Assembly (NCBI GenBank): GCA_016124845.1
Contig: WGMW01000058.1
Location: 1-45,173, forward strand
Length of the DNA: 45,173 nucleotides
Source of the DNA: Flavobacteriales bacterium
GTDB taxonomy: Bacteria; Bacteroidota; Bacteroidia; UBA10329
Direction: 5' to 3'
Under the pieces are notes generated by a model, which was given only the letters and a program-made list of their open reading frames with translations, had not been told where the DNA came from and did not search any database. The stretch's first letter is position 1. The number at the start of each line of letters is the position of its first letter. Below, piece by piece: positions 9,804-45,173 of the stretch. The translations under genes were made by a program, and so were the position numbers.

Positions 9804-11264
9804 CTATTCATACACGTCATATTCCCAAACGAGGCTGACGAAATAGTTGGTGTCCTCCACATAACAATCGCCTCCGGTACAGGCCGCGTCATCATCGAAC
9901 CTGAAACCGACCGCAACTCGGTCTCCTTCGGTGAAGGTCCAACTGGTTGGAACCGTCATGGATGCCGTTTGATTCTCGTTCAGGTTGAAGGCCCCGGAAC
10001 TTGTCACCAACGTTCCGTTCACATCCATCACAATCCGTGCTTTCAGATCCAGGCCGCTGTTCGAACTGTTGCCCACACGTACCACCACTTTCAGTAACCG
10101 GCCATCGAAAGGCGCGGCCCAGTGGTCTTTATAGTCGTTTCCGGATGAGCTGATGCTTCCCGTAACGGCATCATCCGCTCCGTCTCCATTTGCCGGAAAC
10201 CAAAGGATGCCCGTACCGTTCTGATATCCGGCATTATTGAAAGAATGAATGCTCCAATGGCGCATTTTGCCGAAAACCGCTCCGTTCACCTCCAGGGTTG
10301 CCTGCGGATTGGTGGTGCCGATACCCACATTGGTCCCATCGTTCCAAACCGTAGAATTTGCAACCCATGTTGAACCATCGTAACGCAAGGTCTGGTTTAC
10401 CGTTCCAGCGACCAATGGGCCTGTTGCACCAGTTGCTCCGGTCGGTCCTGTTGCTCCTGCCTGACCAGGGTTTCCTTGAATCCCCTGCGACCCAGTAGCT
10501 CCAGTTGGCCCTGTCGGTCCTTGTGACCCAGTAGCACCATTTTGTCCGTTTGCCCCAGTAGGACCAGTAGGACCCTGTGGGCCTGTGGAACCCTGTGGGC
10601 CGGTAGCTCCCGTAACACCATTTTGCCCAGTTGCTCCGGCAGCACCAGTAGCACCTGTTGGGCCGGTCGGCCCTGGAATTCCCACTCCAGTTCCGGTTGG
10701 ACCCATTGGGCCTGTGGGACCGGTCGCTCCGGTTGCACCATTCTGTCCATCGGCTCCTGTTGGTCCTGTAGGGCCTTGCAAACCTGTTGAACCTGTTGGC
10801 CCTGTTACACCGTTCTGACCGTCTGCACCTGTCGGGCCAGTTGCACCATCCTGTCCATCGGCTCCTGTTGGGCCAGTTGGACCGGCAATTCCAGTAGGAC
10901 CTTGAGCCCCTGTGGTCCCTGTCGGACCAGGAATTCCCTGCGACCCCGTTGGACCTGTTGGGCCCGTTACGCCATTTCCTCCTCCGTTGCAGAGGTTCTG
11001 CCAGCTACTTGTGCTTCCTCTGTAGAAGAAGAAGCATTGAATATCCGTATCATAGACCAAAAGTCCATCTGCGGGATTCACGATCAACATTCGTTGCAAT
11101 GTGTTCAGCGTGGGAACCAGCACGCCTTTGTCGGTTGCCGAAAGATCCAAAATGGCACTTGGATCGGGCGATGTGGTTCCAATGCCAACGTTATTCTGTG
11201 CTGAACTTTGCTTTGCAACAAGAGTGGCAACAAGCATCAGTAAAATGTATAGTCTATTCTTCAT
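9804..11264 (-). CDS. Collagen-like surface protein 4 (stalk with beta-sandwich head)
   Basis: A 486-residue exported protein. Residues 1-22 are a signal peptide ending SSA-QN. Residues ~23-100 form the Bacteroidota module that starts [17 protein letters not shown] and ends [18 protein letters not shown]. Residues ~100-285 are Gly-X-Y collagen repeats, mostly GPT, GAT and GPQ triplets, with NGQ/DGQ interruptions. The C-terminal ~200 residues look like a globular beta-sandwich head ([34 protein letters not shown]) with two Cys close together. A Gly-X-Y stalk implies a homotrimer. No T9SS sorting domain is seen. It is the last gene of the operon, 8 bases after the SprF-like gene, and is closed by a terminator. 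Confidence 0.88.
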
Positions 11265-13521: not shown

Positions 13522-15638
13522 CAATTTATCCTTCTCCAAAAAATGACCGCCACATTGTCCGGTCTGGTTTCGCTTGCAGTTGAACCCGTGGCGGCTCCGT
13601 TCACTGTAATGTTCAGATTATGTGTGTGATCGGGAACACTATGGGTGTGGTCAGGCGCAGCATCAGTGGCCCGTTGTTTAATGAAATGTCTGTGCGCGTA
13701 AAAATTCACGGTGTGTGAATGGTTGCCAGCTGTAGTTATAGAGTGCGTATGTCCCATGCAATTGTCGCTCAAACGCCCCATGAAATTACCAACTGTTTCA
13801 TAACCGTTCCAACCGCTACCACAAGTGCTGGCAGTACCATTTGCGTTCAAACTCGCGGCATCTGAACTCAAATTGTCATCATACGGAATCCAGATGTTGT
13901 TGGAATTAGTGTTCGCCCCAGAGGTTGAGCCACCGTGGTTGTGATTTCCGTCTGTGCTGGTACCTCGCGAGGTGTAATCGGCCCCAGTACCATTGGTGCC
14001 ACCCCACCAAAATGTACCATCAGAAATGGTGTTACCCGTTCCGTTTCCATTGCCTGTTCCCGTATCGTACTGACGAGAATCATCATTGCTCCACCAACCT
14101 CCCCAATTGTGCGTATGAGAGCCTGCGGCCGATGTTGTAAGCGCTCCGGAGCCGGCCGTTGTACCGCTTGCCGTATGCGTATGATCCTGAAAAGCATTGG
14201 CCTGAACGGTTCCGGTCAACGCTCCCGCAGCATTCACGTTCGCACCGCCTCCCCGTGCACGGATGAAGCTTCCGTTCGTTACATCAGAGAATACCCATAC
14301 CGTGTTCGGATAGATGGTGTTCGGATCGGCCGCATTGGCCCATTGAATATAGGTTGAGCCGATAGGGGGTGTGTTGATATTCATCCAAGTAACACCTGTA
14401 AACACCTCCATCGTACCAAGGTCAGTGTTCCACCGCATGGCACCGGTTGGCACCGGACCCGTTGGTCTTTGGGCTGATGTGCCCGAAGGAACTCCAATAG
14501 CATCTGTGGTAGCAATTTCCAATGAGACCGTAGCACCGGTCGTACCGATCCCGATATTGTTGGTATTCGGGTCGTGAAAAAGATTACTTGTTGCAACCCA
14601 GGCGGTTCCATCGTTTAGCAATGTTTGACCCAATGTGCCCGGTGCAATGTTTCCCGTTGGCCCAGTGACACCTGTTGGCCCGATCGGACCAGTTACTCCT
14701 TGAGGGCCTGTGGGTCCCACATTTCCCTGAATTCCCTGCGGACCCGTGGGCCCAATGATTCCTTGAGGACCTGTTACACCTTGAGGGCCTATTGCTCCGG
14801 TTGGTCCTACCTGTCCCTGTGGGCCAGTAGCGCCTTGAATTCCCTGTGGGCCCGTTACACCCTGCGGGCCAGTAACGCCTATTGGCCCTTGAGCACCTGT
14901 ATTACCCTGTGGACCTGTATTTCCTTGTGGACCCAATGCTCCGGTTGGGCCTTGTATCCCCTGTGGGCCCGTTGGGCCGATGGGCCCTGTGGCTCCGGTC
15001 GGTCCTATGTTTCCTTGCACACCCTGCGGGCCGATAGGACCGGAAGGACCTGTAGGTCCGAGCAATCCTTGAGGCCCTGTTAAACCTTGAACTCCAGTGG
15101 GGCCAGTAGGTCCAGGCGGACCTTGTAGCCCGATCGGGCCAGTCGGTCCTGTAGGACCAATAGAACCTGTGATCCCCTGCGGCCCAGCAGCGCCAGTAGG
15201 CCCAGGCGGACCTTGTGGACCGGTTGCTCCATCCATCCCTATTATTCCATCCTGTCCGGCAGGCCCTTGCGGTCCGGTTGGTCCGGTTGGTCCGGTGGCG
15301 CCATCAACACCAATGGTCCCTGCAATTCCTTGCGGACCCGTTGGGCCAACGGGGCCCTGAGGGCCGATCGCCTCAACCCATTGAGTGCCATCGAAATACC
15401 AGAACGATTTGGTATCAAGGTCATAGACCAACAGGCCCGTTGCCGGACCTGCAATTGCCAATTTCTCGGCCGTGGTCATCCTTGTGATCAAAAATCCCAT
15501 GTTGTTGGCCTGCAGTTCAAGCAAGGCCGATGGGTCAGGGTTAAGCGTTCCAACCCCCATGTTCTGTTGCTGGGCAAAGACTGTCCGCGACACAACGAAT
15601 GCCGAAACCAGAATCAATATTTGTGCAATCCCTTTCAT
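13521..15638 (-). CDS. Collagen-like protein 3 with a phage short-tail-fibre-like, His-rich tip
   Basis: A 705-residue exported protein: signal peptide (to VFA-QQ), the [16 protein letters not shown] module, then ~235 residues of Gly-X-Y repeats dominated by GPT, GPQ and GIQ. The C-terminal part (from [20 protein letters not shown]) resembles tail-collar and receptor-binding tips of phage tail fibres. It has [10 protein letters not shown], eight His-X-His motifs between about residues 482 and 672 (HTH, HNH, HSH, HRH) and the ending [14 protein letters not shown]. In T4 gp12, HxH motifs bind metal at the fibre tip; that function here is inference. It has a signal peptide and sits in a host surface operon with no phage genes nearby. 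Confidence 0.88.
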
Positions 15639-15643
15639 CCGTA

Positions 15644-16801
15644 CTAAAACCCGGTGCCCCCACTGTTCGAACTTGCGGGACGTTGGTCATCGGTCATTTC
15701 CACTTTCACAAAAAGCACATCCACGCTCCAATCCTCATCATTCACGCTTTCCAGATCGCCTTTGAACCACCAGGTCCCGCCACTGGCATACATGCGTGCT
15801 CTTGTAGACTCCGAATCTCCATCATTTCCAGTAGGATAGAACCCGGCCACCCAAGCAATATAATCTGTGGTTGACATGCCCGTGTTCCGGTTCGGGTTGT
15901 CGCAGTTATTGCAGTAGAACCGCTTGAGTAGGAAGGGCTTGATGCCCGCCACCCAAACATCTCCATTGGAAAGTACACGCAGGCGTTCGGTGTTGTTGGT
16001 TTCCATGTTAAGATCCTGTGCATCTGTGGTGCCAAGGAAATTGTTGGTGGGATTTGTTCCACCATTTCCTGTTGTCATCCAAGCGGCCTGTTGCGCATTG
16101 AGGGTCGATTGTGGATCGGTCACAGACATCAGTCCGTTGGCATTTATGGCGATCGCTGTGTTGAAACTCGGTGGTCCCATCGGGCCGGTCGGACCAGAAA
16201 TTCCTTGCGGACCTTGCGGGCCATCAATTCCGGTAATTCCCACCACACCTTGCGGACCGGTATTTCCGATCGGTCCTGTTGGACCAAGAATTCCAGGAAT
16301 TCCCTGAGCACCTGTTGACCCCACCGATCCCTGCGGACCAGTAACTCCGTTAATACCAACAATTCCCTGAACGCCCTGCTGCCCAATTGGGCCAGATGGC
16401 CCCTGCATCCCTTGCAAACCTGTTATTCCGAGTATTCCCTGCGCACCAACAACGGTTGATGGCTGACCGGTCGGTCCCTGCGCTCCGGTCGGTCCCTGTA
16501 CTCCGGTCGGACCTACTGGTCCCTGAGGGCCTGTTGGACCGAATGGCTGAACCCATTGCACGCCATCGAAATACCAAAATCCAACGGTAGTTACATCGAA
16601 CACTAACAGGCCGTTGGTCGGATTCGGAATCATTTCGCGCTGTGCGCTGGTCATTCTTGGAATCAGCACGCCTTTGTTCTGCGCACTCAATTCCAACTTT
16701 GCAGATGGGTCAGGGCTAAGTGTTCCTACACCGACCTGTTGCTGCGCCATCGCCCGAAACGATAACACGAGCATCAGCAATATTTGAACGAGATTTCGCA
16801 T
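15644..16801 (-). CDS. Collagen-like surface protein 2
   Basis: A 385-residue exported protein: signal peptide ending FRAMA-QQ, the module [22 protein letters not shown], about 120 residues of Gly-X-Y triplets (GPQ, GPT, GIP, GVQ), then a globular head. The head is clearly homologous to that of collagen-like protein 1: both carry [40 protein letters not shown] with [23 protein letters not shown] and the ending DDQRPASS...GGTGF. It is probably a trimer. The ATG shares one base with the preceding stop (TGATG), and the stop lies 5 bases before gene 3. I do not recognise the head as a named lectin family. Confidence 0.88.
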
Positions 16802-17958
16802 CAGAATCCTGTTCCACCTCCTTGCGATGACGCTGGTCGCTGATCATCCACCATCTGAATCTTGATGAAGACGACATCAACACTCCAGTCTTCTCCGCTT
16901 GGCCCTTCTGTATCGCCTTTGAACCACCACGTACCGCCATTTTGGTACATCCTGGCGCGTGTGCTTTCCGAATCATTATTGCTGGTTGGGTAAAACCCAC
17001 CGATAAAGGCAATATAGTCGGCCGTTGACACCCCCGTGTTCCTGCTCGGATTATCGCAACCGTTGCAGTAATAGCGTTTTAGCATGATGGGCTTCACACC
17101 ATCAACCCAGATGTCGCCATTGGCCAGCACGCGCATCTTTTCCGTGTTGTTTGTTCGTACAACCAAGGGTTGATTGTCGGTAGTTCCCACGAAATTATTG
17201 GTCGGATTTGTTCCTGAATTGCCTGTGGTCAACCACGAACCGGAAGAAGTGGTGAGCGTTCCTCCATCATCTGTCAAGCTGTACGTTCCATCTGGATTTG
17301 ATGTGAAAGTGAGATTGTAGCTCGCAGAACCTGATGGACCCGTTGGGCCCTGAATTCCCTGCGGACCTGTTACACCTTGAGGACCTTGGACTCCTTGCGG
17401 ACCCGTTGGGCCAATCTGTCCTTGTGGACCCGTTGGGCCTTGAACTCCCTGTGGACCTGTTGGCCCTTGAACACCTTGAATTCCTGTAGGGCCTGGCGGA
17501 CCTTGTAAACCTTGCGGGCCTGTCGGGCCGATTGCTCCTGTTGGGCCTGTTATTCCCTGTGGTCCCTGCGGGCCTTGCGTGCCAGTCGGACCAGTCGGAC
17601 CAGGCACGCTCGAATCAGCACCAGGAGGGCCTGTTGGGCCTGTTGGGCCTTGAATGCCCTGCGGCCCAGTTGGACCAGTTGGACCCTGCGGACCCAATGC
17701 TTCAACCCATTGCGTTCCATCGTAATACCAGAACGATTCTGTATCGGTATCGAAAACAAAAAGACCTTGGGCAGGATTTGGAATACCGTTTTTCTGTGCG
17801 GATGTCAATCGCGGAAGCAGCACACCTTTGTCGGTACTTTGCACCTCAAGTATGGCGGATGGATCAGGATTCAGCGTTCCAATGCCCATATTGTCCTGAG
17901 CAAAAACCGAACTGATACCAAGTAGCCAGAAAAAGGAAAGTCGTAAAGTAAACTTCAT
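16801..17958 (-). CDS. Collagen-like surface protein 1, first gene of the operon
   Basis: A 385-residue exported protein. The ATG at 17958 starts [21 protein letters not shown], a proper signal peptide, so an upstream in-frame start (18015) is rejected. The module [20 protein letters not shown] follows, then about 120 residues of Gly-X-Y ([12 protein letters not shown]) with one break (ADSSVPG), and the head shared with collagen-like protein 2, including CNGCDN and GTWWFKGD. Threonine often fills the Y position where animal collagen has hydroxyproline; this is usual in bacterial collagens. The start codon lies in the 3' arm of a perfect 11-bp stem (17951-17985), so translation may be controlled by RNA folding. 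Confidence 0.88.
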
Positions 17959-28129: not shown

Positions 28130-31100
28130 ATGAAGCGAGCTTTACGCGAACTCCTCTCATTTGGACTTCCGCTACTCACAACACTTCTGCTGGTGCAGAA
28201 GGCGGAAGCGCAATGTCCTGTCGTCATCGACTCTATCGTCACCACCGATGTTTCCTGTCCGGGAGCGAATGATGGATCGATCTGCATCTATGTGTCAGGC
28301 GGTTTCCCCAACTACACTTATCAGATCTTCAACGGTCCATTCTTCCTCAACTCCGGTCCACAGAGCAATACCAGCTACTGTTTCACAGGTTTGGGATCGG
28401 GTGTTACCAACTATCAGATCATTGTGGTGGGCGAAGATGGTGGCGGTGGTAGCTGTCAGGCGGCCATCGATTTTGCGGTGATCAACGATCCTCCTCCGTT
28501 CAATATTATGGTAACCACCACACCCGACTCTTGCCCCGGTGGCAATGTGGGTACTGCGGTGGTGGATGTAACGGGCGGAACGGCCCCTTACACGTATTTC
28601 TGGCCAGGTTTCGTGGAGACCAGCGATTCCATTTCGGGTCTTGATGGCGGATCTTACACCGTTCAAGTAACCGACAACAACGGCTGTCCTCAAACACAGC
28701 CATTCACTATCGATTCGCCTGCTGATTGGGCTGATACGCTTACCGCAACCGACCCGCTCTGTTTCGGAGGAACGGATGGACAGATCACCTCTTCCGGTGT
28801 CATCGGAGGAACTCCTCCTTACACATATTCGTGGTCTGGAACGGCACAGACAACGGAAAACATTTCCGGTCTTAGTGCAGGTACTTATGCGCTAACGGTT
28901 ACCGACAGCTTGGGTTGTACCAACACCTTCCCGACCGTTACCGTGAATGAGCCGACCCAAATTTCCATTACAGAAACGCACGTTGATGTAAGCTGTAATG
29001 GCGACACCGATGGCTCTATCAATGTTTCTGTTTCCGGTGGAACTCCCGGATATACTTATTTGTGGTCGCCCGGTGGGTCGACCGGACAGGATACCACAGG
29101 TCTTGCCCCAGGCACCTACCAGATCTTGGTGACGGATGCGAACGGATGTCAGGACTCATTGCAAATTGACATTTTGGAGCCGAATGTGCTGGTTGCCAGT
29201 TCTGTAAGTACAGACGCCACCTGTTCGGGTCTGTGTGATGGTACCGCAACCGTGAGCGGCACAGGCGGAACACTTCCATATACATTCGATTGGAGTCCTT
29301 ATTCCAACAGCGGTCCAAGTTCCGTGTCACTTTGCGCTGGAAATTACACCGTGGTTGTAACCGATGCCAATGGATGTCAGGATTCAACCTCCTTCACCAT
29401 TGATGATAACCAGTTGCAGGTTTCCGTGAACTCAACAAACGTGAGTTGCAACGGATATTGTGATGGAACGGCAACAGCCACGGTGACCGGAAATCATCCT
29501 CCATTCACCTACGATTGGCAACCAACCGGTGGTACAGGAACTTCCGAGTCAGGATTATGCGCTGGCAGCTACACGCTTACCGTAACAGACAATAACGGCT
29601 GTTCGCAAACGGTGAATTTCACTATAACGGAACCCGACCCGATCATGATTTCCATGGCCGTTACGGACGTGACCTGCGAAGGTGGTTCGGATGGAGCCAT
29701 CGACCTGACGGTTTCAGGAGGCGTGGGGCCATACACTTATCAATGGTATCCGCTGGGACAGACAACGGAAGATATAAGCGGGCTTCCTGCGGGCGATTAC
29801 TCTGTGGTGGTGACCGATGCCAATGGATGTACGTCAAGCACGGTTACGTTGGGAGGCTCTTTCAATGGCGGTACACTTGCACTTCCTGATGGAACTGGAG
29901 CAACCTACAGCACTTCCATCAACATTACAGGCTTCCCTGCGCTCGGTACCCTCACCAATGTCAGCGATTTCCAAGGCATCTGTATCACCATGGAGCACTC
30001 ATGGCTGAGCGACCTTGACATTGAACTGAGTTGCCCGAACGGTCAAACAGTCCTTCTGGAAGGCTCTTTCCCGACCAGTCAAACAGGTGCAAGCGTCTTC
30101 TTGGGCGATGCCAACGACAACGACAGCATTACGCCTGTTCCGGGAACAGGTTTTGAATACTGCTGGAACACGAACCCGATGTACGGGACCATGGAAACGG
30201 AGGCTGGGCTTGGAAACACGGTCATTGTAAGCCAAGGGGTCGCGCTTCCTGCAGGAAGTTACTCAAGTGTCGATCCACTTTCGGGTCTTTTGGGCTGTCC
30301 GTTGAATGGCGATTGGACCATTACCGTAACGGACAACTTCGCCATTGACAATGGCTTCATCTTCGATTGGAACATTGGCCTGAGCGGTGGCGGTGCAAAC
30401 GATTCGCTGGCGACCGTCAACGAACCGGGGCCGATCACCATCAGTGAAAATGTGACAGACGCAACCTGTGGTCAGTGTGATGGTTCGGTTACCGTAACGC
30501 CAACAGGTGGCGTAGCTCCTTACTCGTACCTGTGGAATACGGGTGCCACTTCGGCCACGATTTCCAACCTGTGTGCAGGCGTTTACAACGTGGAAGTGAC
30601 CGATGCCAACGGATGTTCTGAAACGTTCTTCATTCCTGTTGATCACTCAGATGGCCCAACAGGCGCCAACGTAACTGTGGTGGACGCGTCCTGCTATGGC
30701 GTTTGCGATGGGGAAGCAACAGTTACCGGAATCGGAGGAACTCCTCCTTACACCTATCAGTGGGTTCCGGGAGGTTACAACACCAGCAACGTAACAGGAC
30801 TTTGCGCAGGAACCTATAACGTTCAGATACAGGATTCGCTGCATTGCATCCATACCGAAACGGTAACCATCGGTCAACCGGATCAGATCATGGTCGGACA
30901 GACCGTGACCAACTCTGTTTGCGGACAGTGCAACGGTCAGATCCAATTGACACCGATCTCAGGAACACCACCGTATTCCTACTCGTGGTCTCCGAATGTC
31001 GGGTCGGGTACAAGTGCCACAGGGTTGTGTGCAGGCGTTTACAACATCACAGTAACGGATGGCACCGGCTGTTCCAAAGTTGTCACTTCCTTAGTGAACG

Positions 31101-34100
31101 ATATTCCTTCTGCTTCGATTGCCATGACGGGAATCGACCCATTGTGTAATGACTCTTGCAATGGCCAGGCAATTGCCACACCAACGGGTGGAACACCACC
31201 TTTCACGTATCTGTGGGATGACCCGGCAGGTCAGACAGATTCAATTGCAACCGGACTGTGCGAAGGACTTTACACCATCACGCTGACAGATAGCAACGGA
31301 TGTGTTGCTGTAAATCAGGTGAACCTGACCCAACCGACCCCGATCGGACTTTCGCTGCTCATTATAGATAACGGAACGTGCGCTGGCAACTGTGACGGTC
31401 AGATCACGGTCATTCCTTCCGGTGGAACCATTCCTTTCACCTACCAATGGAATGACCCCTTATCCCAGACAACGGCCAATGCAGACAGCCTCTGTGCAGG
31501 TACCTTTATCGTTCAGGTTACCGATGCCAACGGTTGTATGGACACCGTGGCCGGAACAGTGAACAACCCTGCGGGGCTTACGGCAACGGCTACAACCACC
31601 GATGTAAGTTGCAACGGGCTTTGCGATGGAACCGCAACCGTAACGGCCGTTGGCGGTACACCTCCATTCTCATACCTCTGGGATGACCCTTCTGCGCAGA
31701 CAACCGCAACCGCAACAGGGCTGTGTGCCGGAAACTACACCGTTACTGTAACAGACGCCAATAACTGCGATTTCACCGTTCCGGTGACCATTACAGAACC
31801 GGATCCGTTGGTCATCACATTCTCTGGAATCGTCAACCTGCAGTGTGATGGTATCTGTATAGGAGAGGCCACGGCAGATGTTGTCGGTGGAACAGGTCCT
31901 TATACATATCAGTGGGATGACGCTTTGGCGCAGACAACAGCAGCAGCCGACAGCCTCTGTGCAAGTACCTACACGGTTACTGTAACAGATGCCAACGGAT
32001 GTACCGCTTCTGAATCGGTGACAATCACAGGTCCCAACGGACTTTCATCCAGCATTGTGAGTCAGACCAATGTAAGTTGCAACGGGCTTTGCGATGGAAC
32101 GGCTGTGGTTGAAGGTACAGGTGGAACACCTCCGTACACCTATCAATGGAACGACATCAACAACACGACAAACGATACCATTACCGGGCTTTGTGCCGGA
32201 ACGTATAGCGTTACCGTAACCGACAACAACGGATGTGTCTCCGTTTCCACGGTCACCATCACACAACCGAACCCATTGTCAGCCTCAACCACGGCCAGCG
32301 ATGTAAGTTGCTTTGGGCAATGCGATGGAACGGCAACGGTATTCCCAACGGGAGGTACGTTCCCGTATTCATACCAGTGGAACGACCCGAACAACCAGAC
32401 AACACTTACGGCTGTCGGTCTCTGCCCGGGAAACTACACGGTAACCGTAACCGGATCGAACGGTTGTGTTACCACGGCTCCTGTGCAGATCTTCCAACCT
32501 ACCGAGATCATTATCGATACATTGGTTGTAAACGCAACGTGTGGTCAGTGCAATGGACAGATCACGGTAACGCCTGATGGGGGTGTTCCTCCGTACACCT
32601 ATCTATGGGGTAATGGTCAAACGACAGCTTCCATCAGTGGACTTTGTCCTGGCGTTTACACGGTAGATGTAACGGATGCCATCGGATGTACACAGAACTT
32701 CGATATTGCCGTAAGTAATGATGGTGGCCCAACAAGTGCCACGGTCGTAAGCACAGATGCCTCTTGTTTCGGTGTCTGCGATGGCGAGGCCACAGTAACA
32801 CCTGTCGGTGGAATTCCTCCTTATAATTACCTATGGGTGCCAGGAGGGCAAACAACCGCCAATGTTACCGGACTTTGCGCTGGCGTTTACAACGTTCAGA
32901 TCGAAGATTCGCTGGGATGCATCTATACACAGATCGTCACCATCAACGAACCAAGCCAGATCTTGGGCAACCCGAACGTAACGCAGGCCACCTGTGGGCA
33001 GTGCAACGGTCAGATCTACCTGACACCATCCGGTGGAGACAGCGGTCCTTACACCTACGCTTGGTCACCGAACGTTTCAACCAACGATACCGCCTCTGCC
33101 CTTTGTGCAGGAATTTACACGGTCACCATTACAGATGGTGCGGGCTGCGAAGGAATTGAAACCATCCCCGTTGGTAACATCAGCGGTCCAACGATCACCG
33201 TTTCCGGTGTAGATGCCACCTGCAACGGTTCCTGCGATGGCTCGGCAACCGTATCCATCTCAGGAGGAACGGCTCCGTTCACCATTCTTTGGGACGACCC
33301 AAGTGCGCAAACAGACTCAGTAGCTACCGGATTGTGTGCCGGACAGTACAACGTTACCGTGACCGATGCCAATGGATGTCAATCCGTGGCTCAGGTTCAG
33401 ATAGACGATCCTGATCCGATATCGTTGAGCCTGCAACTGGTCACAGATGCCACCTGTCCGGGTGCCTGCGATGGCGCTGCAACGGTTATCGCCTCTGGCG
33501 GAACACTGCCTTACACCTACAGCTGGTCATCAGGCGGTACTGCAAGCACCGAAACAAATCTTTGTGCCGGAACATACACCGTTACCGTTACCGATGCCAA
33601 TGGCTGTCAGCAACAGCAACAAGTGGTTGTGAATGAACCACCGGCCATCGTCATCAATACAAGTACGGTCGATGCAACCTGTTTCGGCCAATGCGATGGA
33701 GAAGCTTACGCGGATGCCACAGGTGGTTCTGGTGGATTCACGTATCAGTGGAACGACCCCGCATCTACAGCAAACGATACCGTGATCGGTCTGTGTGCTG
33801 GAACATACACCATTGTGGTGACCGATGTGGCCGGATGTATGGATTCTACGGACGTCACCATCAATCAACCCGATTCCATTACGGTAACCATCCAAACAAC
33901 TGCTGTTACATGTAATGGCGATTGCGATGGTAGTGCCATTGCGGTTGCAGTTGGTGGAAACTCACCTTATTCTTATCAGTGGAACGATCCATCATCAACC
34001 ATGAATGATACGGTGGCAAACCTTTGCGCTGGCATCTACAGCTTGGTGGTCACCGATTCCCTCGGATGTACAACCACTTCGGCTGCGGTTATCACCGAAC

Positions 34101-36226
34101 CATTGCCGCTGCTCCTGTTGGATTCTGCTCAGAACATCACCTGCGGTGGAACATGCGATGGTGTTGCTGGCGTATTGGCCCAAGGCGGCACAGCCCCATA
34201 TTCTTACCAATGGAACGATCCGTCCAACGCCACGGACCCGATCGTTCAAGGGCTTTGCGCAGGAACTTATCAGGTGGTGGTGACCGATGCGAACGGATGT
34301 TCAGATTCCACAACAGTTACCATTACCGAACCTGCCGTATTGGATGCTACGGTTTCCGTTCAGAATGCATCTTGCGGTGGCGTGTGTGATGGAGAAGCTT
34401 ATTTGAGCGTCACAGGCGGTACAACGCCTTATGGTGTGCTTTGGCTCCCCAACTTCGAAACATCCGATACGTTGACCGCCCTTTGTGCTGGTCAATACAT
34501 CGCGGTGGTATCTGACGCTTCCGGTTGTGTCGATTCTGCCACAGCAACAATTACGGAGCCTCCGATTCTGACCGCAGATATCACCTCGGTAACGCAGGTG
34601 CTGTGCGCTGGCGGTTGCATCGGAGAGGCCACCGTTACGCCTACAGGCGGAACAGCTCCTTACACGTATCAATGGAACACAAGCCCTGTTCAAACGGACA
34701 GCACGGCAACCAACCTGTGTGTCGGTATCTGGTCGGTAACGGTTACCGATGACATCGGTTGTACTGCAAATGCAACCACCGCCATATCCGATTCTGCGGC
34801 ATTGACAGCGGCCATACCGATCTTTACCAATGTTACCTGTAATGGAGCGTGCGATGGAACGGCCACGGTATTTGCCAACGGTGGTGTTGGGCCTTACTCC
34901 TACTCATGGGATGACCCGAATTCACAGAACACGCAAACGGCAACGGGTCTTTGTCCTGGAGTTTATACGGTAACGGTGACTGACTCTCAGTCTCCTGCCT
35001 GTACCACTCAAGCATCTGTGATCATTGTAGAGCCAACGGCTTTGACCGCCACCGCAACAGCTACGGACGTTACCTGCGGAACAGACTGTGATGGAATAGG
35101 TGTTGCTCTCCCATTGGGAGGAACGCCTCCGTACACCTACGCTTGGAATGACCCCCAAGGTCAACCAGATTCTGTGGCTACCAACCTGTGTGTGGGAACT
35201 TACACGGTGACAGTGACAGATGCTAACGGTTGTACGGTTTCCGCCAGCGCTACGGTCGGTGGTCCGCCTCCAATTGTTTCCAACGCAACCTCGGTGGCAT
35301 CCACGTGTAGCAACATTGCCAATGGCTCCATTGATCTTACGGTGGTTGGTGGTCAACCGGGTTACAGCTACAACTGGACGCCAGGAGGCATCATGACCGA
35401 AGACCTGACCAATGTGATGACAGGTACTTACACCGTTGTGATCACCGATGCCATCGGATGTTCAATTACGGCCACTTATGGTGTTGCCACACTTGTTCAG
35501 ATAGAAGCTGATGCAGGTGTAAGCGATACGGTCTGTATCGGTGAAAGCCTGACGCTTGACGGAACCGGTGGTGGAACGTACACATGGACTCCTGGGTCAT
35601 CCTTAAGTGATTCAACCATTTCCAACCCTGTGGCCACTCCTTTCGACACAACCACCTACTACCTGACGGTGATGATCGGAAACTGTGTGGATATGGATTC
35701 GGTGGTCATCTACACCTACGACAATCCTCCGGTAGATGCGGGCGATGACCTTCAGATTCCAACGGGGGGATCCATTGGACTGAACGCCTTGGGTGTAGTG
35801 ACAGGATGGACGTATAGTTGGGAACCGATCGATTTCTTGGATAACCCGGACATTACCAACCCGACCGCACGGCCGGACGGAACGACCATGTTCTACGTGA
35901 CCGTAACCGATAACCACGGTTGTATGAGTACCGACTCCGTGCTGGTGGAGGTTCTTCCCGGTATCTCCTTCCCTGATGGTATCTCGCCTAACGGTGACGG
36001 AATCAACGACACGTGGATCATTGACAACATCCACTTGTTTGAAGATGCCATCGTAGAGGTGTATAACCGCTGGGGACAGATGTTGTTCCGGTCGGCACCG
36101 GGCTACCCCGTGCCGTGGGATGGCCGCTACAACGGCAAAGACCTTCCAATAGGAACGTACTACTACGTAATTGATTCAAAGAACTTCGAGGAGCCCTTTA
36201 CCGGACCGATCACCATAATTAGATGA
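28130..36226 (+). CDS. Giant SprB-repeat adhesin with T9SS type B sorting domain
   Basis: A 2,698-residue surface protein. Residues 1-27 are a signal peptide (cleavage near AEA-QC). About 29 SprB-type repeats of ~70-75 residues follow, with the core CNGxCDGTATVxxxGGTPPYTY... then LCAGxYTVTVTDANGC. A P-domain-like region (proprotein-convertase type; ICITMEHSWLSDLDIELSCP, NGDWTITVTDNF) interrupts repeat 7 at about residues 573-755. After repeat 29 come two more Ig-like units and a type B sorting domain (ISFPDGISPNGDGINDTWII, VEVYNRWGQMLFRSAPG, GTYYYVIDSKNF). SprB of F. johnsoniae is a mobile gliding adhesin; gliding in this organism is not proven. The stop overlaps the SprF-like start by four bases. 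Confidence 0.95.
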   Translation: MKRALRELLSFGLPLLTTLLLVQKAEAQCPVVIDSIVTTDVSCPGANDGSICIYVSGGFPNYTYQIFNGPFFLNSGPQSNTSYCFTGLGSGVTNYQIIVVGEDGGGGSCQAAIDFAVINDPPPFNIMVTTTPDSCPGGNVGTAVVDVTGGTAPYTYFWPGFVETSDSISGLDGGSYTVQVTDNNGCPQTQPFTIDSPADWADTLTATDPLCFGGTDGQITSSGVIGGTPPYTYSWSGTAQTTENISGLSAGTYALTVTDSLGCTNTFPTVTVNEPTQISITETHVDVSCNGDTDGSINVSVSGGTPGYTYLWSPGGSTGQDTTGLAPGTYQILVTDANGCQDSLQIDILEPNVLVASSVSTDATCSGLCDGTATVSGTGGTLPYTFDWSPYSNSGPSSVSLCAGNYTVVVTDANGCQDSTSFTIDDNQLQVSVNSTNVSCNGYCDGTATATVTGNHPPFTYDWQPTGGTGTSESGLCAGSYTLTVTDNNGCSQTVNFTITEPDPIMISMAVTDVTCEGGSDGAIDLTVSGGVGPYTYQWYPLGQTTEDISGLPAGDYSVVVTDANGCTSSTVTLGGSFNGGTLALPDGTGATYSTSINITGFPALGTLTNVSDFQGICITMEHSWLSDLDIELSCPNGQTVLLEGSFPTSQTGASVFLGDANDNDSITPVPGTGFEYCWNTNPMYGTMETEAGLGNTVIVSQGVALPAGSYSSVDPLSGLLGCPLNGDWTITVTDNFAIDNGFIFDWNIGLSGGGANDSLATVNEPGPITISENVTDATCGQCDGSVTVTPTGGVAPYSYLWNTGATSATISNLCAGVYNVEVTDANGCSETFFIPVDHSDGPTGANVTVVDASCYGVCDGEATVTGIGGTPPYTYQWVPGGYNTSNVTGLCAGTYNVQIQDSLHCIHTETVTIGQPDQIMVGQTVTNSVCGQCNGQIQLTPISGTPPYSYSWSPNVGSGTSATGLCAGVYNITVTDGTGCSKVVTSLVNDIPSASIAMTGIDPLCNDSCNGQAIATPTGGTPPFTYLWDDPAGQTDSIATGLCEGLYTITLTDSNGCVAVNQVNLTQPTPIGLSLLIIDNGTCAGNCDGQITVIPSGGTIPFTYQWNDPLSQTTANADSLCAGTFIVQVTDANGCMDTVAGTVNNPAGLTATATTTDVSCNGLCDGTATVTAVGGTPPFSYLWDDPSAQTTATATGLCAGNYTVTVTDANNCDFTVPVTITEPDPLVITFSGIVNLQCDGICIGEATADVVGGTGPYTYQWDDALAQTTAAADSLCASTYTVTVTDANGCTASESVTITGPNGLSSSIVSQTNVSCNGLCDGTAVVEGTGGTPPYTYQWNDINNTTNDTITGLCAGTYSVTVTDNNGCVSVSTVTITQPNPLSASTTASDVSCFGQCDGTATVFPTGGTFPYSYQWNDPNNQTTLTAVGLCPGNYTVTVTGSNGCVTTAPVQIFQPTEIIIDTLVVNATCGQCNGQITVTPDGGVPPYTYLWGNGQTTASISGLCPGVYTVDVTDAIGCTQNFDIAVSNDGGPTSATVVSTDASCFGVCDGEATVTPVGGIPPYNYLWVPGGQTTANVTGLCAGVYNVQIEDSLGCIYTQIVTINEPSQILGNPNVTQATCGQCNGQIYLTPSGGDSGPYTYAWSPNVSTNDTASALCAGIYTVTITDGAGCEGIETIPVGNISGPTITVSGVDATCNGSCDGSATVSISGGTAPFTILWDDPSAQTDSVATGLCAGQYNVTVTDANGCQSVAQVQIDDPDPISLSLQLVTDATCPGACDGAATVIASGGTLPYTYSWSSGGTASTETNLCAGTYTVTVTDANGCQQQQQVVVNEPPAIVINTSTVDATCFGQCDGEAYADATGGSGGFTYQWNDPASTANDTVIGLCAGTYTIVVTDVAGCMDSTDVTINQPDSITVTIQTTAVTCNGDCDGSAIAVAVGGNSPYSYQWNDPSSTMNDTVANLCAGIYSLVVTDSLGCTTTSAAVITEPLPLLLLDSAQNITCGGTCDGVAGVLAQGGTAPYSYQWNDPSNATDPIVQGLCAGTYQVVVTDANGCSDSTTVTITEPAVLDATVSVQNASCGGVCDGEAYLSVTGGTTPYGVLWLPNFETSDTLTALCAGQYIAVVSDASGCVDSATATITEPPILTADITSVTQVLCAGGCIGEATVTPTGGTAPYTYQWNTSPVQTDSTATNLCVGIWSVTVTDDIGCTANATTAISDSAALTAAIPIFTNVTCNGACDGTATVFANGGVGPYSYSWDDPNSQNTQTATGLCPGVYTVTVTDSQSPACTTQASVIIVEPTALTATATATDVTCGTDCDGIGVALPLGGTPPYTYAWNDPQGQPDSVATNLCVGTYTVTVTDANGCTVSASATVGGPPPIVSNATSVASTCSNIANGSIDLTVVGGQPGYSYNWTPGGIMTEDLTNVMTGTYTVVITDAIGCSITATYGVATLVQIEADAGVSDTVCIGESLTLDGTGGGTYTWTPGSSLSDSTISNPVATPFDTTTYYLTVMIGNCVDMDSVVIYTYDNPPVDAGDDLQIPTGGSIGLNALGVVTGWTYSWEPIDFLDNPDITNPTARPDGTTMFYVTVTDNHGCMSTDSVLVEVLPGISFPDGISPNGDGINDTWIIDNIHLFEDAIVEVYNRWGQMLFRSAPGYPVPWDGRYNGKDLPIGTYYYVIDSKNFEEPFTGPITIIR

Positions 36227-37173
36227 TGACGATGAAAAGACTTCTATACATATCGACCCTTGTCTTGGGATTCTCGCTGTCTTCTTTCGCGCAGCAGATC
36301 CCGCAGTACAGCCAGTACATGCTCAACTCCTATATCCTGAATCCAGCGATGACCGGAGAGAACGACTACTGGGAGGTGAAATCGAACAACCGATTGCATT
36401 GGATCGGCATTAACGATGCGCCACGCACGTTCATTCTTTCGGCAAACGGCCCGTTCAAAAAGTACAACATGGGCATGGGAGGTTCCGTATTTGCGGACAT
36501 TACCGGGCCTACAAGCCGCGTGGGTGTTTACCTATCGTATGCCTATCATCTCAAACTTTCCAAGAAGTTGAGATTGGGAATGGGTATGAGCTTGGGATTG
36601 CTTCAGTACCGCATTGATGGAACCAAAGTGACCCTCTACCAGAACGGTGACCCGGTTTTCCCGAACCAGATGATGACCGTTTACACGGCCGATGCGACCT
36701 TCGGACTGAACCTGAAGCACAAGAATTTCAACTTCGGTATATCCATTCCGCAGTTGATCGGCAACAAGCTCAAGTTCTTGGAAAACCAGCAGGGTACGGC
36801 CAATTCGTTGGCGCGCCACTACATGGCCATGGGCAGTTACACATTCCACGTCAAGGATTTCGGCATCATGCCCAACGTGTTGCTCAAGTATGTATATCCC
36901 GCCCCACCTCAGTTCGATCTGGGTCTTAAAGTAGATTGGCGCGACCAGATCTGGATCGGTGCATGCTACCGTTACAAGGATGCGGTCTCCTTCCTCGGTG
37001 GGTTCGCCTACAAGGATTTCTTGACCGTGGCGTACAGCTATGACATGACCACCTCCAACCTGAGAAACTACTCAAGCGGTACACACGAGATGATGGTGGG
37101 TGTGCGCTTTCGACCATGGAAAAAAGCACCTGTTGAAAACCCAGAGGGTACATCTTCAGGAGAGGCGGAGTAA
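36223..37173 (+). CDS. PorP/SprF family protein, partner of the giant adhesin
   Basis: A 316-residue outer-membrane protein: signal peptide (LLYISTLVLGFSLSSFAQ), then the family signature QIPQYSQYMLNSYILNPAMTGENDYWEVK and NRLHWIGINDAPRTF. Strand-rich barrel segments follow (MGMGGSVFADITGPTSRVGV, FNFGISIPQLIG, FLTVAYSYDMTTSNLRNYSSGTHE, MVGVRF). The ATG at 36223 overlaps the adhesin's TGA (ATGA); ATGs at 36226 and 36232 are alternatives. In F. johnsoniae SprF is needed for SprB to reach the surface. It fits the family better than the SprF-like protein at 11273, which lacks the QYSQYM motif. A bidirectional terminator follows. Confidence 0.95.
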   Translation: MMTMKRLLYISTLVLGFSLSSFAQQIPQYSQYMLNSYILNPAMTGENDYWEVKSNNRLHWIGINDAPRTFILSANGPFKKYNMGMGGSVFADITGPTSRVGVYLSYAYHLKLSKKLRLGMGMSLGLLQYRIDGTKVTLYQNGDPVFPNQMMTVYTADATFGLNLKHKNFNFGISIPQLIGNKLKFLENQQGTANSLARHYMAMGSYTFHVKDFGIMPNVLLKYVYPAPPQFDLGLKVDWRDQIWIGACYRYKDAVSFLGGFAYKDFLTVAYSYDMTTSNLRNYSSGTHEMMVGVRFRPWKKAPVENPEGTSSGEAE

Positions 37174-38723: not shown

Positions 38724-38801
38724 CTCTGTGTGAAAAATCCTTCGATACAATTTTCCGAGAAAGGAAAATCACTCAGGATGACCCGCGCACTCCTTTGCGC
38801 C
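38724..38801. repeat. 78-base direct repeat, copy 1
   Basis: Identical to 45047-45125 except for one added C in the second copy. It includes CCTTCGATACAATTTTCC, a stem of TTTTCC/GGAAAA and CACTCAGGATGACCCGCG. The pair brackets the signalling block. Confidence 0.9.
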
Positions 38802-39387
38802 TTGGCCGCTTTGCGAGAACCGACCGCGAGCGAAGCGAACCCTTTGCGTCCTTGCAACTTTGCGAGACCTAAACGTGAGCGAAGCGAACCTCCATCTCTC
38901 TGCGTCTCCGCGTGAATAAAATCTGTGAGCGAAGCGAACCCTTTGCGCCCATGCGCCTTCGCGAGACCCCAACGTGAGCGCAGCGAACCTCCATCTCTCT
39001 GCGTCTCTGTGTGAATAAAATCTGTGATCGAAGAGAACCCTTTGCGCCCCTGCGCCTTTGCGAGACCTCAACGTGAGCGAAGCGAACACCCTCTCCATGC
39101 ATCTCCCATCCTCCTTGCCCCTCCGTGCAACAACCCCGTGAGCGTAGCGAACCTCCATCTCTCTGCGTCTCTGTGTGGATAAAATCTGTGAGCGTAGCGA
39201 ACACCCTCATCTCTGTTCATCTGTCCATTTCTCTGTCTCTCCGCCCCTCTGTGTGAACTAAACCCTGAGCAAATTAAACAACATCTACTTCCACTCCCTT
39301 GCAAAGAAATGATTCACCAAATAAGCACCCGTCTTATGTATTGAAAGCCAACCAATACACCTCAAAGCTCTAAACATAAATTATTCG

Positions 39388-44584: not shown

Positions 44585-45173
44585 TCTCTCTTTCCCTGAT
44601 CTCTATTCACCTACCGATTTTCTCTGCCTCTCTGTTTGAAATAATCTGAGCGTAGCGAACCGACCAACGGGAGCTCATTGCCTCTGAATGTTCTCTCCGT
44701 GCATCTCCCATCCTCCTTTCCCCTCCGTGCAACAACACCGTGAGCGTAGCGAACCCTTTGCGTCCTTGCAACTTTGCGAGACCTAAACGTGAGCGAAGCG
44801 AACGCTCTCCGTGCATCTCCCATCCTCCATTCCCCTCCGTGCAACAACACCGTGAGCGAAGCGAACCCTTTGCGTCTTGGCCGCTTTGCGAGAACCGACC
44901 GTGAGCGTAGCGAACCCTCTCCGTGTATCTCCCATCCTCAATTCCCCTCCGTGCAACAACACCGTGAGCGAAGCGAACCCTTTGCGTCTTGGCCACTTTG
45001 CGAGAACCGACCGTGAGCGTAGCGAACCAAATCTGCTTCCCTGCGGCTCTGTGTGAAAAATCCTTCGATACAATTTTCCCGAGAAAGGAAAATCACTCAG
45101 GATGACCCGCGCACTCCTTTGCGCCCCTGCGTCTTCACGAGCAACCCACGTGAGCGAAGCGAACCTCCATCTC
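44585..45173. repeat. Noncoding array 2 of short modular repeats, continuing past the window
   Basis: Same modules as array 1: GTGAGCGAAGCGAACC or GTGAGCGTAGCGAACC in about eight copies, CCTTTGCGTCTTGGCCGC with TTTGCGAGAACCGACC, and CATCTCCCATCCTCCTTTCC with CCTCCGTGCAACAAC in three copies (near 44700, 44812 and 44925). The last copy is cut by the window end. Minus-strand frames through it are repeat translations. The 140 bases before it (44443-44584) hold no recognised feature. Confidence 0.85.
45047..45125. repeat. 78-base direct repeat, copy 2
   Basis: Same sequence as 38724-38801 with one added C in the TTTTCCC tract, in the same orientation. The near-identity over 78 bases contrasts with the variable modules around it and suggests recent copying or gene conversion. 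Confidence 0.9.

Follow-up and report, generated by a model that had tools for sequence, protein, structure and literature searches.

Covarying cysteine pairs suggest clamped and stapled Ig-like repeats in a secreted SprB-type protein of a Flavobacteriales bacterium

Architecture of the repeat protein

The window, the whole stretch of DNA analysed here, is a 45,173-nucleotide contig of a Flavobacteriales bacterium (WGMW01000058.1). One of its open reading frames (ORFs) codes for a secreted protein in which a presumed signal peptide, ending near AQ-C29, is followed by seven SprB repeats, a proprotein convertase P-domain, 22 further SprB repeats, two PKD/Ig-like domains and a CHU_C domain. The Pfam profile PF13573 matches the ORF in 28 tandem stretches with 769.8 bits, against a curated cut-off of 28. 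The CHU_C match (PF13585, 74.5 bits) and the adjacent PorP/SprF gene (PF11751, 261.9 bits) mark the protein as a type B substrate of the T9SS. We label the recurrent cysteines of a repeat C1 (the first Cys), C2 (in CxGxCDG), C3 (in GLCAG) and C4 (in NGC). The features of the locus are as follows.

28130–36226, + strand: secreted repeat protein of 2,698 aa, SprB-repeat array with a type B T9SS C-terminal domain (Pfam matches PF13573 and CHU_C PF13585)
28214–28216, + strand: C29, in an AQC motif after the presumed signal peptide; putative partner C109, C4 of repeat 1 (orthologue conservation)
28217–28483, + strand: repeat 1, without C2/C3, with a register-shifted pair C52 (28283–28285) and C84 (28379–28381) (alignment)
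28493–29179, + strand: repeats 2–4, without C2/C3 (alignment)
29183–29635, + strand: repeats 5–6, with C2/C3 (alignment, AlphaFold model)
29639–29860, + strand: repeat 7, without C2/C3, adjoining the P-domain; same state in orthologues (alignment, orthologues)
29861–30430, + strand: proprotein convertase P-domain inserted in the array, its four conserved Cys at 618, 635, 678 and 723 (Pfam, orthologues)
30431–35266, + strand: repeats 8–28, each with C1, C2, C3 and C4 (alignment)
35267–35494, + strand: repeat 29, without C2/C3; its C1 (C2393) would pair with C2519 of the following domain (alignment, orthologues)
35495–35959, + strand: two PKD/Ig-like domains, the first with C2469 (35534–35536) and C2519 (35684–35686), the second with C2598 (35921–35923) only (sequence, Pfam)
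35966–36214, + strand: CHU_C type B sorting domain (Pfam)
36223–37173, + strand: outer membrane partner of the PorP/SprF family, lacking a CxC motif at its C-terminus (Pfam)

The P-domain is inserted at the same place in the SprB array of orthologues and its four Cys are conserved there; C1 of repeat 7 (C516) and C4 of repeat 8 (C829) bring the number to six. At the other end of the protein, an AlphaFold run on repeat 29, the two PKD domains and the C-terminal domain with six orthologues gave a pLDDT of 39.4 and a pTM of 0.22, and the placement of the PKD domains rests on sequence. The genome of the window holds many further ORFs with SprB repeats. Elsewhere in the window, short tandem repeats resembling the collagen-type G-x-y pattern occur in minus-strand ORFs (10732–10883, 14895–14933, 16467–16510 and 17328–17514), and tandem DNA repeats sharing GTGAGCGAAGCGAACC lie outside the listed ORFs at 38792–39087 and 44693–45028.

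A cysteine pair within the repeat

In the aligned array, every one of the 29 repeats has C1 and C4, and C2 and C3 come together or not at all. Translation and alignment give both in 23 of the 29 repeats, neither in six and one alone in none, as the first-pass annotation had counted, and its list of the repeats that lack the pair (1, 2, 3, 4, 7 and 29) is exact. Repeats 8, 10, 17 and 19 have a CGQC form with one residue less before C2. The second pair of repeat 1 is shifted in register, with C52 at C2+5 and C84 at C3−5 (ORF amino acid numbering), and both of its cysteines are absent from the orthologue L085. The same annotation had placed the repeats without C2/C3 at the array ends and beside the P-domain; this placement is real and is kept in orthologues, which preserve the C2/C3 pattern around the P-domain. 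Among 114 mixed arrays, the last repeat lacks C2/C3 in 77%, compared with 52% overall.

The rule extends to other SprB-repeat proteins. A profile made from the window repeats, and then from a wider set, was used to collect repeats from the rest of this genome, relatives, the class and 80 named contigs; the contig scan took a single window stretch as its query, and the nearest named contigs are from uncultured Flavobacteriales. The first repeat set contained 533 repeats with both C2 and C3, 972 with neither and five with one, and the loci fetched once the rule was set contained 531, 1,085 and two, respectively. Once merged and made non-redundant, the fetched Bacteroidota loci yield 3,023 distinct repeats, of which 1,051 have both, 1,966 neither and six a single Cys, against 1,373 singles expected from the column frequencies if the two were independent; repeat counts are not counts of independent events, because the repeats are related by duplication and their tree is poorly resolved. 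Some apparent single-Cys repeats were set aside as artefacts, being PKD/Ig domains whose C1 was aligned to C2, or stretches truncated where a locus ends. Among the few odd cases that remain are repeats of the form CxxCxDG with an odd Cys and no C3 (CDTCNDG, CGTCPDG and CHSCYNG; loci L074, L095, L097, L120, L123, L143 and L160).

No residues of the repeat are coupled more strongly than C2 and C3. The pair tops the mean-field DCA ranking (columns 18–52, z 31), with no other column pair approaching it; the second coupling, columns 23–47, lies in the same antiparallel register with the same register sum (70), and contacts between strands C and F, F and G, and A and G are next among the top couplings. 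Columns 23–47 correspond to C2+5 and C3−5, and as a Cys pair they too are all or none (29 both, no single), never occurring together with 18–52. Rarer Cys pairs that come close to this behaviour are found at columns 7–70 (27 both, one single) and 57–71 (30 and eight). A GCTxxTC pair between strands C and E (columns 43–48; 14 both, four single) was observed in L090, L041 and L097. A Cys at column 58 in strand F (TYTCTITD; for example L215 and L164) is present in 148 repeats, mostly without a partner column; it is probably free and buried, and a single Cys thus appears to be tolerated at sites that do not pair.

Where these positions fall in three dimensions was taken from an AlphaFold2 model of repeats 4–7, made with 133 tandem stretches (pLDDT 95.8, pTM 0.77). 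Each predicted repeat has strands A, B, C, E, F and G, named by the Ig convention. C1 is predicted in the A–B loop, C2 just before strand B, C3 just after strand E and C4 in the F–G turn. Joint loss is seen between orthologues, as in the window repeat at residue 2,235, which reads CNGACDG..GLCPG where L083 reads CNGAGDG..GLVPG, the two being 86% identical elsewhere. The first-pass annotation had proposed two kinds of disulfide within a repeat, one between the extra cysteines and a usual one between C1 and NGC. Its first proposal has stood up: the covariation, the strand register, the alternative register and the joint loss make a putative C2–C3 disulfide across strands B and E within one repeat well supported. 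Its second is not supported by the coupling of C1 and C4 described below.

Coupling of C1 and C4 between neighbouring repeats

In an Ig-like sandwich, the A–B and E–F loops lie at one end and the F–G turn at the other. C1 and C4 would therefore sit at opposite ends of the predicted fold, and we accordingly tested their covariation at different partner offsets. Between C1 of one repeat and C4 of the next (offset +1), 2,596 pairs have both Cys, one has C1 only, 20 have C4 only and 20 have neither (p 3e-38); the other offsets give p values of 0.1 (−1), 2e-5 (0) and 0.15 (+2). The sole C1-only case is a truncated reading frame. Among the 20 C4-only cases, 12 have a replacement Cys in the linker that leads into strand A, and eight begin with a C1 outside the aligned column, as read by eye. 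Of the 20 joint losses, 16 retain C4 of the same repeat and 19 retain C1 of the next. Many of them read SGxxxCDG, in which C2 remains but C1 is gone, and in the repeat that follows NNGV, DANSI or DSSGG takes the place of DANGC. In the pairwise coupling analysis, C1–C4′ ranks first of 5,740 inter-repeat couplings. On the strength of the offset and of the opposite-end positions, we read C1–C4 as most likely an inter-repeat staple that runs along the array.

The ends of the arrays agree with this reading. Most repeats without C4 open a run (42 of 65 have no adjacent predecessor), and first repeats frequently lack C4 while keeping C1. In other proteins with a visible N-terminus, a Cys immediately behind the signal peptide accompanies C4 in the first repeat, the exception being L128, which has an N-terminal Cys without C4. 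In the window protein and its orthologues, C29 is present in all five complete N-termini (window and L082–L085), and the four orthologues that have an N-terminus keep AQC. At the C-terminal side, all five Cys of this stretch are invariant in six orthologues, and the second PKD domain, which holds C2598, has no further A–B Cys. A pairing scheme of C29–C109, C1(i)–C4(i+1), C2393–C2519 and C2469–C2598 would account for these residues, judging from the sequence, and is favoured because C1–C4 bonds inside repeats would orphan C29 and C2598.

The arrangement of the first-pass annotation, with C2–C3 and C1–C4 both closed inside one repeat, draws on the presence of both C1 and C4 in most repeats and on the weak covariation at offset 0. 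We consider it very unlikely, given that covariation at offset +1 is far stronger (p 3e-38 against 2e-5) with a truncated frame as its one exception, that the two residues are predicted at opposite ends of the fold, that first repeats often keep C1 without C4, and that C29 and C2598 would be left unpaired. The suggestion of the same annotation that repeats without C2/C3 form flexible joints also loses support, because C1–C4 is likely to staple one repeat to the next: C1 and C4 are kept in every window repeat, and the AlphaFold confidence in repeat 4 equals that in repeats 5–6, with repeat 7 only slightly below them.

Descent could in principle produce the C2/C3 pattern, if old four-Cys and two-Cys subfamilies had been moved among proteins with no selection acting on the pair. 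Repeats of one type do tend to lie together, with 1,529 adjacent repeats in the same state compared with 1,346 after shuffling, and on a tree built with the columns masked the C2/C3 state takes about 416 parsimony steps compared with about 870 with shuffled labels, a step count to be taken as a maximum, given the poor resolution of short repeats. So many steps have nevertheless left almost no single-Cys state, close repeats of related genomes change both Cys jointly, and no column pair comes near the C2–C3 coupling, so that we hold descent alone to be a highly improbable explanation. A reading of C1, C2, C3 and C4 as four ligands of a metal or cofactor site, rather than as disulfides, takes its appeal from the superficial resemblance of CxGxC to a metal motif. 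C2/C3 are lost with C1/C4 kept, however, and C1/C4′ with C2/C3 kept, and the pair can shift five residues along both strands; independent losses and such a shift do not fit a fixed four-ligand site, and this reading is almost certainly wrong.

A stapled fibre and its relatives

With an intra-repeat pair and an inter-repeat pair, the window protein is very probably a T9SS-secreted Ig-like SprB fibre with an optional C2–C3 clamp inside the repeat and a C1(i)–C4(i+1) staple between repeats. The observed covariation, strand register and offset specificity are the basis on which we infer bond formation in the cell and a mechanical role. The clamp would bridge strands B and E, at the start of the former and the end of the latter, and, being optional, could be replaced by other cross-strand pairs, for example five residues along in the same register. 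The staple would run from C1(i), in the A–B loop at the C-terminal end of one domain, to C4(i+1), in the F–G turn at the N-terminal end of the domain that follows. Nearly every repeat would be stapled to its successor, in a chain that leads from C29 into the C-terminal PKD domains.

Because the staples overlap, the shortest covalent path would skip two repeats per step, using only the 25–26 residues from C4 to the next C1. By sequence arithmetic, the shortest path from residue 780 to residue 2598 takes 12 disulfides and 279 backbone residues. With general length values (about 0.37 nm for a residue and about 4 nm for a folded domain), this path measures ~110 nm, near the folded length of 24 domains (~96 nm), compared with ~670 nm for the unfolded stretch without staples. 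Such a fibre would be nearly inextensible even with its domains unfolded. With somewhat more reserve, we think it likely that Bacteroidota SprB-type arrays are continuous staple chains, fibres of thousands of residues that are nearly inextensible whatever their folding, with interchangeable, optional intra-repeat clamps. A search of the window's genome for DsbA, DsbB, VKOR and Thioredoxin_4 gave no Pfam match, despite the many apparently disulfide-rich surface proteins encoded there.

The window protein shares with Flavobacterium johnsoniae SprB the PF13573 sequence family, the tandem arrays, the type B T9SS C-terminal domain and the adjacent PorP/SprF gene. In F. johnsoniae, a CxC motif in the periplasmic C-tail of SprF is disulfide-bonded to the gliding track protein GldK and so ties SprB to it (PMC12635249). 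The SprF homologue of the window (36223–37173, + strand) has a C-tail, PVENPEGTSSGEAE, without Cys, in contrast to the CxC of F. johnsoniae SprF, and the sign of a link to the track is thus missing from it. For this reason, the window protein may be an anchored fibre rather than a gliding adhesin. We found no disulfide scheme for the SprB repeat in the open-access literature searched.

The best structural match over the four modelled repeats is GhpA of Aureispira sp. (PDB 9flp, 9flw and others; Z 12.1, rmsd 7.8 Å, 284 residues), other Ig tandems scoring Z 8 to 10.7. GhpA is also the best sequence match in the PDB, and its aligned part carries Cys where the repeats have C1 and C4. The modelled repeats thus appear to have a GhpA-like fold, and a shared fold does not show a shared function. 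GhpA differs from the window protein in length (5,898 aa) and is about 20% identical to it. The GhpA hook is an assembly of several chains. Should inter-domain disulfides be present in the GhpA maps, a published structure would already show the staple; we found no open paper that states so.

Long tandem Ig-like fibres with added mechanical stability are likewise described for the Mobiluncus mulieris adhesin (PMC10619420) and the MpAFP/MhLap extenders (PMC5380327, PMC4083281). The stabilisation there is attributed to ester, isopeptide, disulfide and thioester cross-links in each domain, or to calcium. The window array would differ in that putative disulfides run between successive repeats.

A bonding scheme drawn from sequence alone would explain nearly every Cys in SprB arrays, and it names the residues for structural biologists to check. 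It also carries a mechanical prediction for gliding and attachment fibres: the staples would limit the stretched length, which should grow several-fold on reduction. SprB repeats are widespread in the class, and 84 of its 99 sampled genomes have a match above the Pfam cut-off.
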